Part shown: piece by piece, positions 31,600 to 37,359 of the stretch | Numbering within the stretch: position 1 is the stretch's first letter | How the letters are laid out: each line of letters starts with the position of its first letter | DNA from: Nitrospiraceae bacterium | GTDB lineage: Bacteria; Nitrospirota; Nitrospiria; Nitrospirales; Nitrospiraceae | Assembly: GCA_023248355.1 (NCBI GenBank) | Contig: JAHFES010000013.1 | Location: 1-37,397 of the forward strand | Length of the DNA stretch: 37,397 nt | Direction of reading: 5' to 3' | Notes under the pieces: generated by a model | Seen by the model: only the letters and a program-made list of their open reading frames with translations | Databases searched by the model: none | Told to the model about the DNA's origin: nothing | Translations under genes and position numbers: made by a program

Positions 31600-31843
31600 T
31601 AGGGATTTCATGGACTTAGATTGTTTCTTGGGAATTCCTAAAATAGATCTCCGGACAGCACGCTATCACTCAGAATATCCCTCCTCAAATCGGGTTGAAT
31701 CCCCCCGTGTCATGAGTTTTCACTTCATCTGCGATGAAGCGTCCTTTCTTGTTCTAAAGAAAATTCCTGCAGGGCCTAAGAAAGCTGTGCGCCCTTGCAA
31801 GGAATGATTCTGTTGGCCCGACGCGTGAAATGTTTTCCTCTCG
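31600..31843. other. intergenic stretch upstream of rsmH
   Basis: The spacer between the dcw promoter and the promoter of the repeat-protein gene, visibly richer in A and T than the flanking genes. mraZ would be expected next to rsmH, but no MraZ-like coding sequence can be read here on either strand. One open frame of 65 codons (31610-31807, plus) has no recognisable features. I see no tRNA, repeat or terminator. Confidence 0.4.
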
Positions 31844-31872
31844 TTGACATGTCTTTGATTGGGGGCGACAAT
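31844..31872 (+). promoter_or_regulatory. possible promoter for the repeat-protein gene
   Basis: TTGACA (31844-31849), a 17-nt spacer and GACAAT (31867-31872) lie on the plus strand. An overlapping alternative is TTGATT (31855-31860), 17 nt, TATGAT (31878-31883). The first would start transcription close to ATG 31879. Confidence 0.4.
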
Positions 31873-31878
31873 GTTTTT

Positions 31879-32940
31879 ATGATATTGAAGGCTGTAGATT
31901 CAGTAGGGCACAATTCCAGGAGGGCGTGCAGAGCCATCCCCTTGTTGATGGCACTATTCTTTCCTGCAGGTATTACTTGGGCCGCTCCTCCTGTTGAATT
32001 CTGCGAGAACCGCACTCCAGACCAGCAATTGGGCGCAGCCAAAGGGGACTCCTCAGCGAATAACCGCGGGAAATGTATTCCTCTAGTAGAGAAAAGAGAA
32101 AAAACCTCCGGCGACGAGGGCAGCGCTGGTGAGAAAACTCGTGAATTGAAGATCGAGAATCTTCAAACCGAAGTCACGGCATTTCTTCAGAAGTACAATC
32201 AGTTTCTGGAGTGCTGTAAGACGGACATCGCCGAACTGCAAACAGTGGAAGAGCTTGGCGACGAAGTCGGCGAATTGCTTGCACTGGCACAAACTGGCCT
32301 CTTCAGCGAGCATATGAAACTCCGCGGCTGGACGCTACGTGAATTACTCCCCCCTGTCGCCAAGACGCGCGCTGACCTGAAGACGTTGCGCGAAAAACTC
32401 GAGTACGTTGGCACAAGCCGAGAGAAGCTTGGCGAGCTTGATTACGAGGAGTCAGCGCGAGAAGCGGCGCGGCTTCGTGAAGTGGAAGACTCCATCGATA
32501 AGGACATTCGATCACAGGCCTTACCTACAGGTCCGAAAACCGGAACGAGCATTGGGGCCAATTCTAGCGTGGGCGGTGCGATTGGAAAAACCCCGAGGAC
32601 TGGGACGCAGATTGGGGCCGAAGGCGCCGTCGGCGCAGATCTCGGCGCCAACCCCAAAGCGGGCAGGGACATTGGCGCGACGGGCCCGACCGGTTTTGAA
32701 ATCGGCGCGACAGGCCGAGCCGGCGCAGACATCGGCGAGTCTCGTTTGAATTCAGATCAATCCGCAGTGGGGTCGAGCTTGCAGCAGTCGACGGTCGGAT
32801 CGAGCATTTCAGATACGACCGTGGGATCAAGTCTCGGACGATCGACCATCGGCTCCAACTTGAGTGACACCTCTATCGGTTCGACGCTCGGGGGATCGTC
32901 GGTCGGATCCAGCCTGCAGAATCGCGGCACCAGCCGGTAG
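31879..32940 (+). CDS. exported helical protein with two C-terminal tandem-repeat arrays, unknown function
   Basis: I do not recognise the family. From ATG 31879 (353 aa) there is a credible signal peptide: RRACR, hydrophobic IPLLMALFFPAGITWA, cleavage near 35-36. A charged helical region follows (about 88-210, likely partly coiled coil) with paired Cys112-Cys113. Next come seven consecutive 10-residue units of pattern [T/V/A]-G-x-x-[I/L]-G (221-290). Last come six 9-residue units of pattern [V/I]-G-S-[S/N/T]-[L/I] (296-349). The phasing has no insertions. Such repeats suggest a beta-solenoid or extended surface structure, which is inference. Upstream in-frame starts (ATG 31849 and 31804, TTG 31795) would put over 50 residues before the hydrophobic core, so 31879 is preferred. 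It is divergent from the dcw operon and convergent with a lipoprotein gene. Confidence 0.75.
   Translation: MILKAVDSVGHNSRRACRAIPLLMALFFPAGITWAAPPVEFCENRTPDQQLGAAKGDSSANNRGKCIPLVEKREKTSGDEGSAGEKTRELKIENLQTEVTAFLQKYNQFLECCKTDIAELQTVEELGDEVGELLALAQTGLFSEHMKLRGWTLRELLPPVAKTRADLKTLREKLEYVGTSREKLGELDYEESAREAARLREVEDSIDKDIRSQALPTGPKTGTSIGANSSVGGAIGKTPRTGTQIGAEGAVGADLGANPKAGRDIGATGPTGFEIGATGRAGADIGESRLNSDQSAVGSSLQQSTVGSSISDTTVGSSLGRSTIGSNLSDTSIGSTLGGSSVGSSLQNRGTSR
32539..32748 (+). repeat. tandem array of seven 30-nt coding units
   Basis: Seven contiguous in-frame 30-nt units encode decapeptides with Gly at position 2, Ile or Leu at position 5 and Gly at position 6 (TGTSIGANSS, VGGAIGKTPR, TGTQIGAEGA and so on). 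DNA identity between units is much lower than protein-pattern identity, so the array is old or selected at the protein level. Confidence 0.85.
32764..32925 (+). repeat. tandem array of six 27-nt coding units
   Basis: Six contiguous in-frame 27-nt units encode nonapeptides (AVGSSLQQS, TVGSSISDT, TVGSSLGRS, TIGSNLSDT, SIGSTLGGS, SVGSSLQNR). Unit ends alternate between types such as S-D-T and G-R-S, hinting at an 18-residue higher-order repeat. Confidence 0.85.
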
Positions 32941-34014: not shown

Positions 34015-34512
34015 TTACCTATAGTTGGTGAACTGCAGTTCAATGCTGAAATCTTTGCTTTTCAGAAATGCCATCGCCGCTTGCAACTCATCCTTGCTCT
34101 TGCCCAGCACGCGGACCTGCTCGCCTTGAATCTGCGCTTGTACTTTCAATTTCGATTCCTTCACCGCTTTCGTAATCTCTTTGGCTTTTTCGATCGCAAT
34201 ACCGCTTTGAATCTTGGCGGTCTGCCGCACCGTCCCGCTCAGCGCCGGCTCGATAGCGCCATAATCGAACGCCTTCAGCGACACCCCGCGCTTCGTACAC
34301 TTCGTCTTGATAATGTCGATCACCGCGTTCAACTTGTACTCGTCATCCGACACGATCACGAGTTCCTTTTCTTTCTCCTTCAGCGTGATCTCCGTCTTCG
34401 TGTCCTTGAAGTCGAAGCGCTGCTTCACTTCCTTCGTCGCCTGATCGACCACGTTCCGCAGTTCCTGCATGTTCACTTCTGATACGACATCGAATGAAAA
34501 TTGATCAGCCAC
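34015..34512 (-). CDS. yajQ: YajQ-family nucleotide-binding protein
   Basis: A 165-residue member of the YajQ (UPF0234) family, two ferredoxin-like RNP-type domains. In Xanthomonas a homolog binds cyclic di-GMP; in E. coli a member binds nucleic acid or GTP. The start SFDVVSEVNMQELRNVVDQA, RFDFKDTKTEI and the C-terminal VRVLGKSKDELQAAM are typical. The start is GTG 34512 with a strong AAAGGAGG upstream, chosen for that ribosome site. It lies downstream of a long inverted repeat that separates it from cstA. Confidence 0.94.
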   Translation of the reverse strand: MADQFSFDVVSEVNMQELRNVVDQATKEVKQRFDFKDTKTEITLKEKEKELVIVSDDEYKLNAVIDIIKTKCTKRGVSLKAFDYGAIEPALSGTVRQTAKIQSGIAIEKAKEITKAVKESKLKVQAQIQGEQVRVLGKSKDELQAAMAFLKSKDFSIELQFTNYR

Positions 34513-34542
34513 GATTTCCTCCTTTTTCCTCTTTGCCTATCC

Positions 34543-34661
34543 AAGGGGCGGCCTGGTCGATCCTCAAATGCGCGCATAGAACGAGCATATCGTTCACCAC
34601 AGTGTCATACAATGAGCAGATATGCGCGTTCCGCGAGCAAGAGGACGACCAGGCCGCCCTT
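34543..34661. repeat. long inverted repeat between cstA and yajQ (MITE-like or structured RNA)
   Basis: The left arm AAGGGGCGGCCTGGTCGATC... (34543-34565) and right arm (34641-34661, reverse complement AAGGGCGGCCTGGTCGTCCT...) are near identical, differing by one extra G and one extra A. The interior of about 75 nt holds ATGCGCGCAT (34568-34577), whose core is partly repeated in inverted order at 34621-34628. It ends about 8 nt downstream of the cstA stop. No open reading frame and no T tract at either end. Confidence 0.75.
34584..34612 (-). promoter_or_regulatory. weak candidate promoter for yajQ
   Basis: TTGTAT (34612-34607), a 17-nt spacer and TATGCT (34589-34584) lie on the minus strand inside the inverted-repeat element, about 70 nt before the yajQ start. 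Confidence 0.3.
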
Positions 34662-34669
34662 CTCTCCCA

Positions 34670-36685
34670 CTAACAACACCCGCCGCCGTGCGGCAGCTTA
34701 AAACTCTTCTCATCATGTTGGTGTATCGCCGTCTGCATGCGCCCAGCCGAACCACCGCCCGCCATCACGATTACTTCACTGCTCGTAAAGGGCCTCTTCA
34801 ACACCACATATCCGTACCATTGCCGCATACTGTCGCTCAAGACGATCAATCCGAGAATCGCCACCACCGCCACGAGCGCCGCATCCAGATACAGGGCAAA
34901 GGCCCCTCCCGCCGCCAGCGCCGCCGCCTTCTTCAGGAACATCCCGAACATTTCATAGGACCCAGTCAGCGTGATCGCGCCCACGAACAGCATCGGCACC
35001 GCCGTCACCCAGAGATAGGACGACTTCCACATCTTGATCAACACCGTCGTCCCGATACAGAGCGCCAGTGTTCCCAGCAGCTGATTCGCCGCGCCGAACA
35101 TCGGCCAGATCGTCGAGATACTCCCCGTGCCAATCAAATAGGCCCAGGATCCGACCACAACGCCACTGCTCAGCAGCACCCCGGGCCACCAGTTCATCCA
35201 GCGAAACGGCGCATACACCCGCCCCGCCATTTCCTGGATGAGATAGCGCCCCACGCGCGTCCCCGTATCGATCGTCGTCAGGATGAACAGCGCCTCGAAC
35301 ACCAGCGCGAACTGATACCAATAGGCCATCAGCCCCGCCATCCCCGGCAGCGCCGCAAAGATCGAGGCCATTCCGACTGCGAGCGATACCGCCCCGCCCG
35401 GCCGCCCAGCCACATCCACCTCGACCAGCTGTGACAGTTCTGCAATCCGCGCAGGCGCAAAACCCATGGCCGTAAGCGTCTCCGCCGAGAGGTTCGTATT
35501 GATCGCCAGATAGTCGCCCGGAATCAGCACCGACGCGGCAATCAACGCCATCACGCCAACGAAACTTTCCAGCAGCATCGCCGCATACCCCACCACCGCC
35601 TGCGACTCCTGCTCGATCATCTTCGGCGTCGTGCCGGACGACACCAATGAGTGGAACCCCGACACCGCCCCGCAGGCAATCGTAATAAAGAGGAAGGGGA
35701 AGAGGGTGCCGGGGATAATCGGGCCGCCGCCATGGGCGAACGCCGTGACGCGCGGCATCTCGATCGTCGGCGCCATGAGCACGACGCCGAAGCCGAGCAA
35801 AAACACCACGCCGAGTTTCATAAAGGTGGAGAGATAGCCCCGCGGCACCAGCAACATCCAGCCTGGCAGCACCGAGGCCAGAAACCCATAGCCGGCCAGC
35901 ATCCACACGAGCGTCGGTCGGTCGAACTCAAAGAGCCAGGCATAGGACGACTGCCCCACCACACGCCCAAACAGCACCGCCGCAATCAAGAGCACCACCC
36001 CGATCACCGACACTTCCGCCACCGCGCCAGGGCGAAACTTCTGGAGATAGAAGCCCATGATGAAGCCGATCGGAATCGTCATCGCAATCGTGAAGGTGCC
36101 CCAGGCATTCTGGTAGAGCGCATTCACCACCGCAAAGCCCAGCCCAGCCAATGCCACCACCACAATAAACAGCACTGCCACAGCCGTCGCGGTGCCGGTG
36201 ACGGAACCGAGTTCATCGTGAGCAATTTCAGGCAACGAGCGGCCATTCCGCCGCATCGAAGCCACGAGGATGATGAAGTCCTGCACCGCCCCCGCCAGCA
36301 CCGCGCCGATCACCAGCCAGAGAAAGCCGGGGAGAAAGCCGAACTGCGCCGCCAGCACCGGACCCAGCAGCGGTCCTGCACCGGCGATGGCCGCGAAGTG
36401 ATGACCGAAGAGGACGACTTTATTCGTGGGATGAAAATTCACGCCGTCGTTCATCCGAACGGCGGGAGTGACTCGCTGATTGTTCAGCTCAACGACTTGC
36501 CTGGCCAGCCAGCGACCATAGAAGCGATAGGCCAACACATAGATGCAGGACGCCGCGACGACGAGCCAGAGGCCGTTTACTTTTTCAGTGGGATTGATAA
36601 CGCCAACCACATGGGCCAGCGCCACAGCACCAAGGACGGAGAGCAGGCCCCATATGAGATGTACAAAGTGTCGCACGCGGGGCAT
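34670..36685 (-). CDS. cstA: carbon starvation protein CstA-type transporter
   Basis: A 671-residue polytopic membrane protein with some 16-18 hydrophobic segments. CstA family markers are RMNDGVNFHPTNKVVLFGHHFAAIAGAGPLLGP (read in parts), the GAVQDF loop, ACGAVSGFHSLVSSGTTPKM, and FEALFILTTIDTGTRVGRY with PMFGAANQLL near the C-terminus. Family members import peptides or pyruvate, and the substrate here is not determined. Length is usual. ATG 36685 has only a weak ribosome site. The last residues are HGGGCC, a Cys pair at the extreme C-terminus that I do not know as a family feature. It is divergent from the mazEF pair. Confidence 0.94.
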   Translation of the reverse strand: MPRVRHFVHLIWGLLSVLGAVALAHVVGVINPTEKVNGLWLVVAASCIYVLAYRFYGRWLARQVVELNNQRVTPAVRMNDGVNFHPTNKVVLFGHHFAAIAGAGPLLGPVLAAQFGFLPGFLWLVIGAVLAGAVQDFIILVASMRRNGRSLPEIAHDELGSVTGTATAVAVLFIVVVALAGLGFAVVNALYQNAWGTFTIAMTIPIGFIMGFYLQKFRPGAVAEVSVIGVVLLIAAVLFGRVVGQSSYAWLFEFDRPTLVWMLAGYGFLASVLPGWMLLVPRGYLSTFMKLGVVFLLGFGVVLMAPTIEMPRVTAFAHGGGPIIPGTLFPFLFITIACGAVSGFHSLVSSGTTPKMIEQESQAVVGYAAMLLESFVGVMALIAASVLIPGDYLAINTNLSAETLTAMGFAPARIAELSQLVEVDVAGRPGGAVSLAVGMASIFAALPGMAGLMAYWYQFALVFEALFILTTIDTGTRVGRYLIQEMAGRVYAPFRWMNWWPGVLLSSGVVVGSWAYLIGTGSISTIWPMFGAANQLLGTLALCIGTTVLIKMWKSSYLWVTAVPMLFVGAITLTGSYEMFGMFLKKAAALAAGGAFALYLDAALVAVVAILGLIVLSDSMRQWYGYVVLKRPFTSSEVIVMAGGGSAGRMQTAIHQHDEKSFKLPHGGGCC

Positions 36686-36778: not shown

Positions 36779-37030
36779 ATGAAAGCCCAAATCGTTCGAA
36801 TCGGTAACTCCAGAGGCATCCGTCTCCCGAAAACGCTCCTTCAGGAAGCTCAGCTTGGAAACGAAGTTGAACTCCATGCCGAACCAGGAAGAATTCTGAT
36901 TTCAAAGTCGGCAAAACCACGAGCCGGTTGGAGCGAAGCTGCTCAACGCATGCGCGAGCGTGAAGAAGATCGTCTTATCGACCCATCGACACCAACTCAA
37001 TTCGACAAAGACGAGTGGAAGTGGCGGTAG
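36779..37030 (+). CDS. mazE: MazE-type antitoxin (AbrB/SpoVT swapped-hairpin)
   Basis: The 83-residue protein has the AbrB/MazE DNA-binding signature at its start: A-Q-I-V-R-I-G-N-S-R-G-I-R-L-P-K, then ELHAEPGRILI. The C-terminal half is acidic and Trp-rich (DKDEWKWR), the usual flexible toxin-binding segment. ATG follows AGGAGA. The 3' end overlaps the toxin gene by 16 nt, which keeps antitoxin translation ahead of the toxin. It probably represses its own promoter through the palindrome upstream. Confidence 0.9.
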   Translation: MKAQIVRIGNSRGIRLPKTLLQEAQLGNEVELHAEPGRILISKSAKPRAGWSEAAQRMREREEDRLIDPSTPTQFDKDEWKWR

Positions 37031-37359
37031 AGCGCACAGAGCCGACGCGCGGCGATGTCTATCTGATTGCACTCGACCCCACCCGAGGCAGTGAAATCCG
37101 AAAAACAAGGCCCTGTCTGGTCGTTTCTCCCGATGAGCTCAATCAACATCTGCGGACGGTCATTATCGCGCCATTGACCACCGGAGGACACGCCTATCCC
37201 TGGCGCGTTCGATGCCGGTTTCGTGAGAAGGCAGGGTTTGTCGCACTGGACCAACTGCGGACAGTGGATAGTGAGCGCCTCGTCAAGCACCTTGGGCGAA
37301 TCTCCCCTGGAATACTCACAGCGGTTCTTTCAACATTGCAGGAAATGTTCACGCCATAA
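37015..37359 (+). CDS. mazF: MazF/PemK-type toxin endoribonuclease
   Basis: The 114-residue protein has the MazF/PemK fold signature RGDVYLIALDPTRGSEIRKTRPCLVVSPD, read in parts, with the conserved Arg of the TRP/RP segment. TVIIAPLTT with the catalytic-type Thr follows, then the FVALDQLRTVDSERLVKHLG helix region. Such toxins cleave mRNA or other RNA at short motifs; the specificity cannot be read here. The start is GTG 37015, or GTG 37021, both overlapping the end of mazE. Nothing further is recognisable in the last 38 bases of the window. Confidence 0.9.
   Translation: MEVAVERTEPTRGDVYLIALDPTRGSEIRKTRPCLVVSPDELNQHLRTVIIAPLTTGGHAYPWRVRCRFREKAGFVALDQLRTVDSERLVKHLGRISPGILTAVLSTLQEMFTP

Follow-up and report, generated by a model that had tools for sequence, protein, structure and literature searches.

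The cstA-yajQ spacer and its palindromic element

The window, i.e. the whole stretch of 37,397 nucleotides that was analysed, stems from a Nitrospiraceae genome (2.49 Mb, 82.7% complete) that is assigned to 'Nitrospira' by relatedness. It carries cstA and yajQ, both on the minus strand, and in the spacer between them a short palindromic element. The genes and the parts of the element are the following:

34670..36685, minus strand: cstA (PF02554, E 1.4e-201), whose 3' end is abutted by the element
34670..34672, minus strand: stop codon of cstA, 8 nt from the hairpin
34015..34512, minus strand: yajQ (PF04461, DUF520, E 2.3e-63), the next gene, in the same direction
34543..34661, plus strand: the whole element; the plus strand is the strand of the family model (R1) and antisense to cstA and yajQ
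34543..34565, plus strand: 5' arm of the base stem, private in sequence
34569..34587, plus strand: 5' arm of the conserved core, TGCGCGCATAGAACGAGCA, with a 2-nt bulge (AT) at 34576-34577; conserved alignment columns
34588..34622, plus strand: variable terminal loop and stem, 35 nt here and 11 nt in the short class
34623..34639, plus strand: 3' arm of the conserved core, TGCGCGTTCCGCGAGCA; conserved alignment columns
34641..34661, plus strand: 3' arm of the base stem

Read directly from the sequence, 34543-34661 is a true inverted repeat, its arms measuring 23 and 21 nt. The 5' arm (AAGGGGCGGCCTGGTCGATCCTC) and the 3' arm (GAGGACGACCAGGCCGCCCTT) pair except for an extra G and a bulged A, each a difference of one base, and 34546-34559 pairs with 34646-34659 over 14 bp without interruption. 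Folded as DNA, the segment 34530-34675 reaches -41.5 kcal/mol, compared to -18.5 +/- 2.9 kcal/mol in 200 dinucleotide shuffles (z -7.9), none of which folds equally well. An inner palindrome (34579-34591 with 34619-34631) represents the conserved core of the family to which the element belongs, and G.A mismatches are located at 34572/34636 and 34584/34626. The covariance model of this family, R1, matches 34541-34667 with 134.4 bits. The near-perfect inverted arms, the internal secondary palindrome, and the absence of a T tract, all noted in a preliminary description of this DNA, are confirmed for the window element.

The same description had read a weak promoter inside the element that might drive yajQ. 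This role finds no support in a consensus scan of 34400-34800, which returned no sigma-70-like site (0.3 expected). A scan of the same segment for terminator-like sites found none inside the element and two overlapping ones within the 3' end of cstA (34680-34697, minus strand). Elsewhere in the window, a gene pair encoding a MazE-like antitoxin (PF04014) and a MazF/PemK-like toxin (PF02452) occupies 36779-37359, and an open reading frame of 381 aa at 31795-32940, free of Pfam matches, shows a degenerate, repeat-rich C-terminal half (IGA.., VGSS..).

A dispersed family of Nitrospira and near relatives

The element is one copy of a dispersed family confined to Nitrospira and near relatives. By sequence it is single-copy in its own genome (blastn), and a pattern search for its end that allowed up to 3 mismatches likewise found one place there. 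Counting the own genome, 43 of 98 genomes give blastn matches, which lie partly at the cstA-yajQ pair and partly elsewhere. From an alignment of 28 copies the model R1 was built, in which the core is conserved and the base stem variable. In the own genome, R1 matches at 10 places that do not overlap (E <= 1e-4). The preliminary description had suggested a search for further copies and regarded a single-copy sequence whose relatives preserve only the stem by compensatory changes as speaking against mobility; with ten structural places, the genome shows a different picture.

Among congeneric genomes, 54 of 58 harbor R1 matches at E <= 0.01, the exceptions being G008, G009, G049, and G050. In the phylum set, matches at E <= 1e-4 were found in 44 of 198 genomes, all 44 within the family of the window genome; three more genomes of that family gave no R1 match (phylum-set genomes without match: G225, G246, and G264). 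Copy numbers per congeneric genome are lower bounds, given stricter filters and at most 59 candidates scored per genome. The exact core pattern is present at no fewer than 80 loci in 84,980 species genomes. Among the matches listed, the scan yielded 80 loci with 120 stretches, and the titles of all but one of the listed loci name Nitrospira, Nitrospirae, Nitrospirota, or Nitrospiraceae, the remaining one Nitrosospira. The core-pattern loci supplied a set of 127 elements (R1 matches down to 50.6 bits, out of 176), on which most of the following counts rest.

Members of the family are about 100-130 bp long and consist of a base stem of about 20 bp, a conserved core, and a loop whose length is either 11 or about 35 nt. 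The sequence of the base stem is private to the copy or subfamily, yet self-complementary. In the core, the motif TGCGCG..CGAGCA occurs twice, so that the folded strand displays two mirrored blocks of G.A mismatches and a 2-nt bulge. On the R1 strand the core arms read TGCGCGCATnGAACGAGCA (5') and TGCGCGTTCnGCGAGCA (3') and pair with each other; taken singly, either arm directly repeats the imperfect palindrome TGCGCG-N(5-7)-CGAGCA. Pairs in the middle of the core covary, e.g. columns 40/102 with C-G 7, U-A 6, and G-C 6 times. Of 124 dispersed elements examined, 118 yielded the motif, and 115 of these have the outer G.A; the sample is biased by the fact that the loci were fetched with a pattern containing those bases and scored by a model built on them; an orthologous set found by synteny also keeps the G.A mismatch. 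Arrays are frequent, with copies about 125 bp apart.

The family is apparently undescribed. In the literature on Nitrospira repeats, under a coverage that leaves most subscription journals outside, no title or abstract opening describes it. A table row in PMC12306157 gives REP counts for Nitrospira moscoviensis obtained by a general tool, and these counts may include some of the present elements.

Placement behind stop codons

The elements tend to be placed in one direction relative to genes. In 44 of the 127 elements, a stop codon faces the 3' side of R1 within -20 to +30 nt, as judged from crude gene calls by a simple codon model; random placement in the same gaps yields 7.8 +/- 2.7 (maximum 17 in 300 rounds). 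At the other end, a stop codon was met at a single element of the 127, compared to 7.9 by random placement. The placement in a second, smaller element set points the same way. In the own genome, five of the ten places are stop-adjacent by eye (cstA, contig C9, C160:172, and both places on contig C89), and one lies inside a gene. The element itself provides the stop codon in three cases (L125, L138, L148). Ten of the 127 elements overlap called genes, most of these calls starting inside the element; the overlaps are read as gene-calling errors. An RPE-like coding role was rejected, as no coding-like frame traverses any of the 127 elements and a response-regulator gene, treated below, is the sole case.

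A second repeat, starting approximately with CAGGATGCTGAAAAAG, is also found directly behind stop codons at five loci (L095, L117, L139, L167, L169), where the present element comes after it; at L232 and L234 this repeat lies behind cstA.

Stem shape and the strand that is kept foldable

The base stem is supported as being kept by shape. Duplexes between the two 24-nt arms of the same element have a mean of -33.3 kcal/mol, compared to -20.1 kcal/mol for arms of different elements, and the best of 1000 permuted means is -21.9 kcal/mol. This comparison used 114 of the 127 elements; those without a recognisable core, with N, with short flanks, or with a duplicate stem were dropped, and about eight of the 114 that look mis-registered by the regular expression were retained. 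At an orthologous site behind an SDR gene (contig C89 in the own genome), aligned across 13 species, 94% of the cells are paired and 16 of 36 pairs have changed on both sides (13 sequences). Double-change cells number 59 there; shuffles give 27.2 and slid versions no more than 7, a contrast that in part separates two subfamilies and comprises fewer events than cells; further pair types are lower than in shuffles. The own-genome copy at this site resembles a chimera of two subfamilies and is included in the count. At orthologous sites, the stem is preserved by compensatory changes. Template switching that 'corrects' the palindrome was considered as the cause of the covariation, and the retained G.A mismatches argue against it.

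Of the two strands, it is that antisense to the upstream gene whose folding is kept, as an asymmetry of G.T wobbles shows: 115 are found on the R1 strand and 22 on the gene strand (98 of the 114 elements, symmetric alignment of the two arms; p 2e-16, with elements not independent). Counted by cluster at 80% identity, 21 favor R1 and 3 the gene strand (p 3e-4); coarser clustering weakens the bias (8:0 at 70%, p 0.008; 4:0 at 60%, p 0.12). Elements away from stop codons display the same bias (75:15). At the SDR site the R1 direction is also seen by eye, although a plain count over that alignment gives 17 G.T to 13 A.C for the gene strand, about 12 of the 17 being one constant pair. The earlier reading of the element as a structured RNA has support insofar as compensatory changes occur in the stem and one strand is kept foldable; its RNA nature does not follow, as the wobble bias would fit single-stranded DNA and RNA alike and cannot tell the two apart. 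A mutational strand bias could also underlie the asymmetry.

Turnover and insertion sites

Orthologous positions are filled in some genomes and empty in others, a sign of mobility or turnover. Among 30 cstA spacers inspected by eye, 22 hold an element, one a partial element, and seven none, two of the latter being very short (L214, L217). The subfamily differs among species, one copy is nested (L215), and the loops can hold another repeat. Two other element-free spacers (L238, L240) have a terminator-like hairpin at the same place, which neither L214 nor L217 shows. Behind the SDR gene (30 loci by eye), 27 complete elements lie at the stop codon, one is collapsed (L287), and two sites are empty (L294, L300). 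Across assemblies, elements recur behind the same genes, namely purC, ribBA, and a DEAD-box gene (names by reading), and within single assemblies copies up to 94% identical are flanked by unrelated sequence. By eye, comparison of empty and filled sites at three loci revealed no clear target-site duplication.

Several loci exhibit composite arrangements. In the SDR loci L288-L299, a complete element beside the stop codon is followed by 3' halves of other (older) ones, and in the cstA loci L222 and L230 a half unit lies on the opposite side. The terminal loop of L224, L231, and the own-genome copy L244:172-320 carries another repeat of the approximate form GGGACGCGTCTTGGCGCGTCCC...GGTGAGAA, as if one palindromic unit had entered the loop of another.

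On contig C150 of the own genome, a response-regulator gene (L243:1315-1872) contains a copy in frame. In-frame palindromic inserts of different subfamilies occupy the same loop of the receiver domain in five species, namely in this gene and in the orthologues of four others (L262-L265, with two inserts in L265); the orthologue L269 is empty.

The preliminary proposal of a miniature inverted-repeat element holds in part: the family is dispersed and multi-copy, with empty and filled sites. It does not hold for a standard MITE, as the arms are variable and the core conserved, and neither a transposase with the same ends, near the 80 loci covered, nor a clear target-site duplication, at the three loci compared, was found.

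Candidate partner enzymes and known RNA families

RAYT transposases (PF01797) are hit in 34 of 58 genomes. R1 has no match in 30 RAYT loci (94 kb), where a strict regular expression gave one palindromic chance match (L035), and four of the 15 copy-rich genomes (at least 15 copies) have no RAYT hit (G005, G014, G017, G033). Beside the arms of 124 of the 127 elements, no REP tetranucleotide tag (GTAG, CGTC) is dominant. RAYT was rejected as a partner. The integron integrase passes the cut-off in 6 of 58 genomes, two of them among the 25 with at least 15 copies, and its 8 loci contain no confident R1 match, with one at chance level (E 0.96). R boxes of the form RYYYAAC...GTTRRRY are present in 1 of 124 elements (mean 0.1 in shuffles). 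This partner was rejected for its lack of copy-number tracking and of R boxes. A reverse transcriptase is encoded in 20 of 58 genomes, is absent from the own genome and from 15 of the 25 genomes with at least 15 copies, and was likewise rejected; two weak matches near 30 of its loci (E 0.046 and 0.34) are read as chance. The draft genomes are incomplete, so all these absences are soft. Among 538 called proteins of the 80 loci, no recurrent transposase appears in the listed clusters found in at least three loci. Neither seven loci nor the window gave an Rfam match at gathering score; MIR5084, found below threshold near the element (20.5 of 110 bits), is at chance level and was discarded.

Possible nature of the element

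In kind, the element is ordinary, a small palindromic repeat. Unusual are two measured properties, the one-way placement at stop codons and the folding of the antisense strand with stems kept by shape only; it is the mechanism beyond these that we infer. Our leading, if tentative, explanation is that the element may be a mobile site of which a single strand is recognised in its folded form, following a logic like that of attC sites or REPs and belonging to neither family. A putative trans-acting enzyme would recognise the sequence of the core but only the shape of the base stem, would act on the antisense strand, and would place the unit behind open reading frames. Copies would be kept or replaced in place because the spot spares both neighboring genes, or because the folded antisense strand is useful; the window copy would be such a unit in the cstA-yajQ spacer. 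Against this speak the lack of an enzyme among RAYT, integron integrase, and reverse transcriptase, the lack of a clear target-site duplication, and the fact that only 44 of 127 copies are stop-adjacent by crude gene calls; compensatory change in place and recurrence behind the same genes would also fit a host function without present mobility. A more specific version, which we regard as rather doubtful, supposes an undescribed enzyme, neither of the integron nor of the RAYT kind, that would recognise the antisense-strand hairpin via the mirrored G.A blocks and the stem shape and would insert it one-way behind stop codons across the genomes of Nitrospira. If true, such a stop-codon-directed, strand-specific element would represent a new mode of insertion. 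A structured antisense RNA is conceivable, albeit not the likely answer: transcripts arriving from the 3' side of the gene would fold, and a pyrimidine-rich tail would stop or process them; as variants, the element would insulate the gene from antisense transcription or form the 3' end of a convergent neighbor. The folding strand is indeed the antisense one, the orientation is fixed, the coding region lies immediately beyond the site, C and T prevail on the R1 strand behind the hairpin, and compensatory changes occur in place. However, a T-rich tail (at least 5 T in 8; 95 of the 114 elements) follows in only 4 of 95 on the R1 strand, so these are not canonical terminators; Rfam is silent at the scope given above, and arrays and in-frame insertion receive no role.

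The mobile folded-strand site also has to be set against readings that assign the element to the mRNA or to an established class of repeat. That it is a 3'-end or intercistronic hairpin in the mRNA of the upstream gene, i.e. a host-kept terminator or a stabiliser of the 3' end of the kind suggested for REP and other small repeats, is unlikely. Direct placement behind stop codons and compensatory changes at orthologous sites agree with it, as does the canonical terminator-like sequence that two genomes with at most one copy (L238, L240) have in this position downstream of cstA, but no T-rich tail (0 of 95) follows on the gene strand and the wobbles favor the other strand. GTAG REPs, in the parts of PMC3733652 concerned, likewise form arrays of short, imperfect hairpins that follow stop codons; it is nevertheless very improbable that the element is a repeat of the REP/BIME type moved by a RAYT, i.e. 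a Y1 HUH transposase, in view of the matchless RAYT loci, the copy-rich genomes devoid of RAYT, and the missing shared tag. There is even less to be said for a classical MITE bounded by the terminal inverted repeats of a DDE transposon: a dispersed 119-bp unit with inverted ends would qualify, but here the ends vary freely around a conserved core, the end of the window copy occurs at a single place in the genome, and no recurrent transposase lies near the 80 loci in the listed clusters. Least credible of all are attC sites of integron cassettes. According to the passages of PMC2727003, these too use only the folded bottom strand and possess extrahelical bases and a variable terminal structure, but the boxes are practically missing, the integrase loci yielded a single chance match, the integrase does not track copy number, and the neighbors seen are housekeeping genes.

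Bacteria commonly harbor small palindromic repeats, for which the mobiliser and the active strand are seldom known. Here, sequence statistics indicate which strand folds and where copies are located, and the choice between a mobile site of folded DNA and an antisense RNA element becomes a testable question. Nitrospira are major nitrite oxidisers and include the comammox organisms. Many of their gene 3' ends carry elements, and the answer bears on operon expression.

Comparison with known systems

YPAL, EFAR, REP/BIME, RPE, and attC each share some traits with the present element, which was assigned to none of them; further papers on these known kinds, seen in excerpt, are PMC10969869 and PMC6006769. 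The Yersinia palindromic sequences (YPAL or RU-2) are described in the passages of PMC2229807 as dispersed units of about 168 bp with internal inverted repeats, empty and filled sites, targets near dyad symmetry, target duplications of 3-26 bp, and a possible effect on upstream mRNA. They resemble the present element in being palindromic and dispersed with empty and filled sites, and differ in belonging to an unrelated clade and in their 3-26 bp duplications, whereas none is clear here; those same passages contain no test of stop-codon placement, strand-specific folding, or private stems.

EFAR (Enterococcus faecalis repeats) inserts into stem-loop targets; by contrast, the base-stem length of the present element is nearly constant. 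The two, compared by description only, are both palindromic miniature elements, EFAR being named in the parts of PMC3733652 considered. With REP/BIME, as far as the excerpts of the sources go, the element shares imperfect mismatched hairpins, arrays, and ends able to supply a stop codon; it differs by the missing RAYT link, the long base stem, and the antisense strand being kept foldable. Rickettsia palindromic elements (RPE), as portrayed in the excerpts, are also palindromic, measure about 105-150 bp, and can sit in frame within a gene, whereas in-frame insertion is rare here (0 of 127, and one response-regulator locus). attC sites are located behind a stop codon. Their likeness to the present element, within the source passages named above, further includes one chosen strand that folds, variable sequence combined with structural recognition, here putative, and a variable terminal structure; unlike them, the present element shows no R boxes, integrase link, or cassettes.
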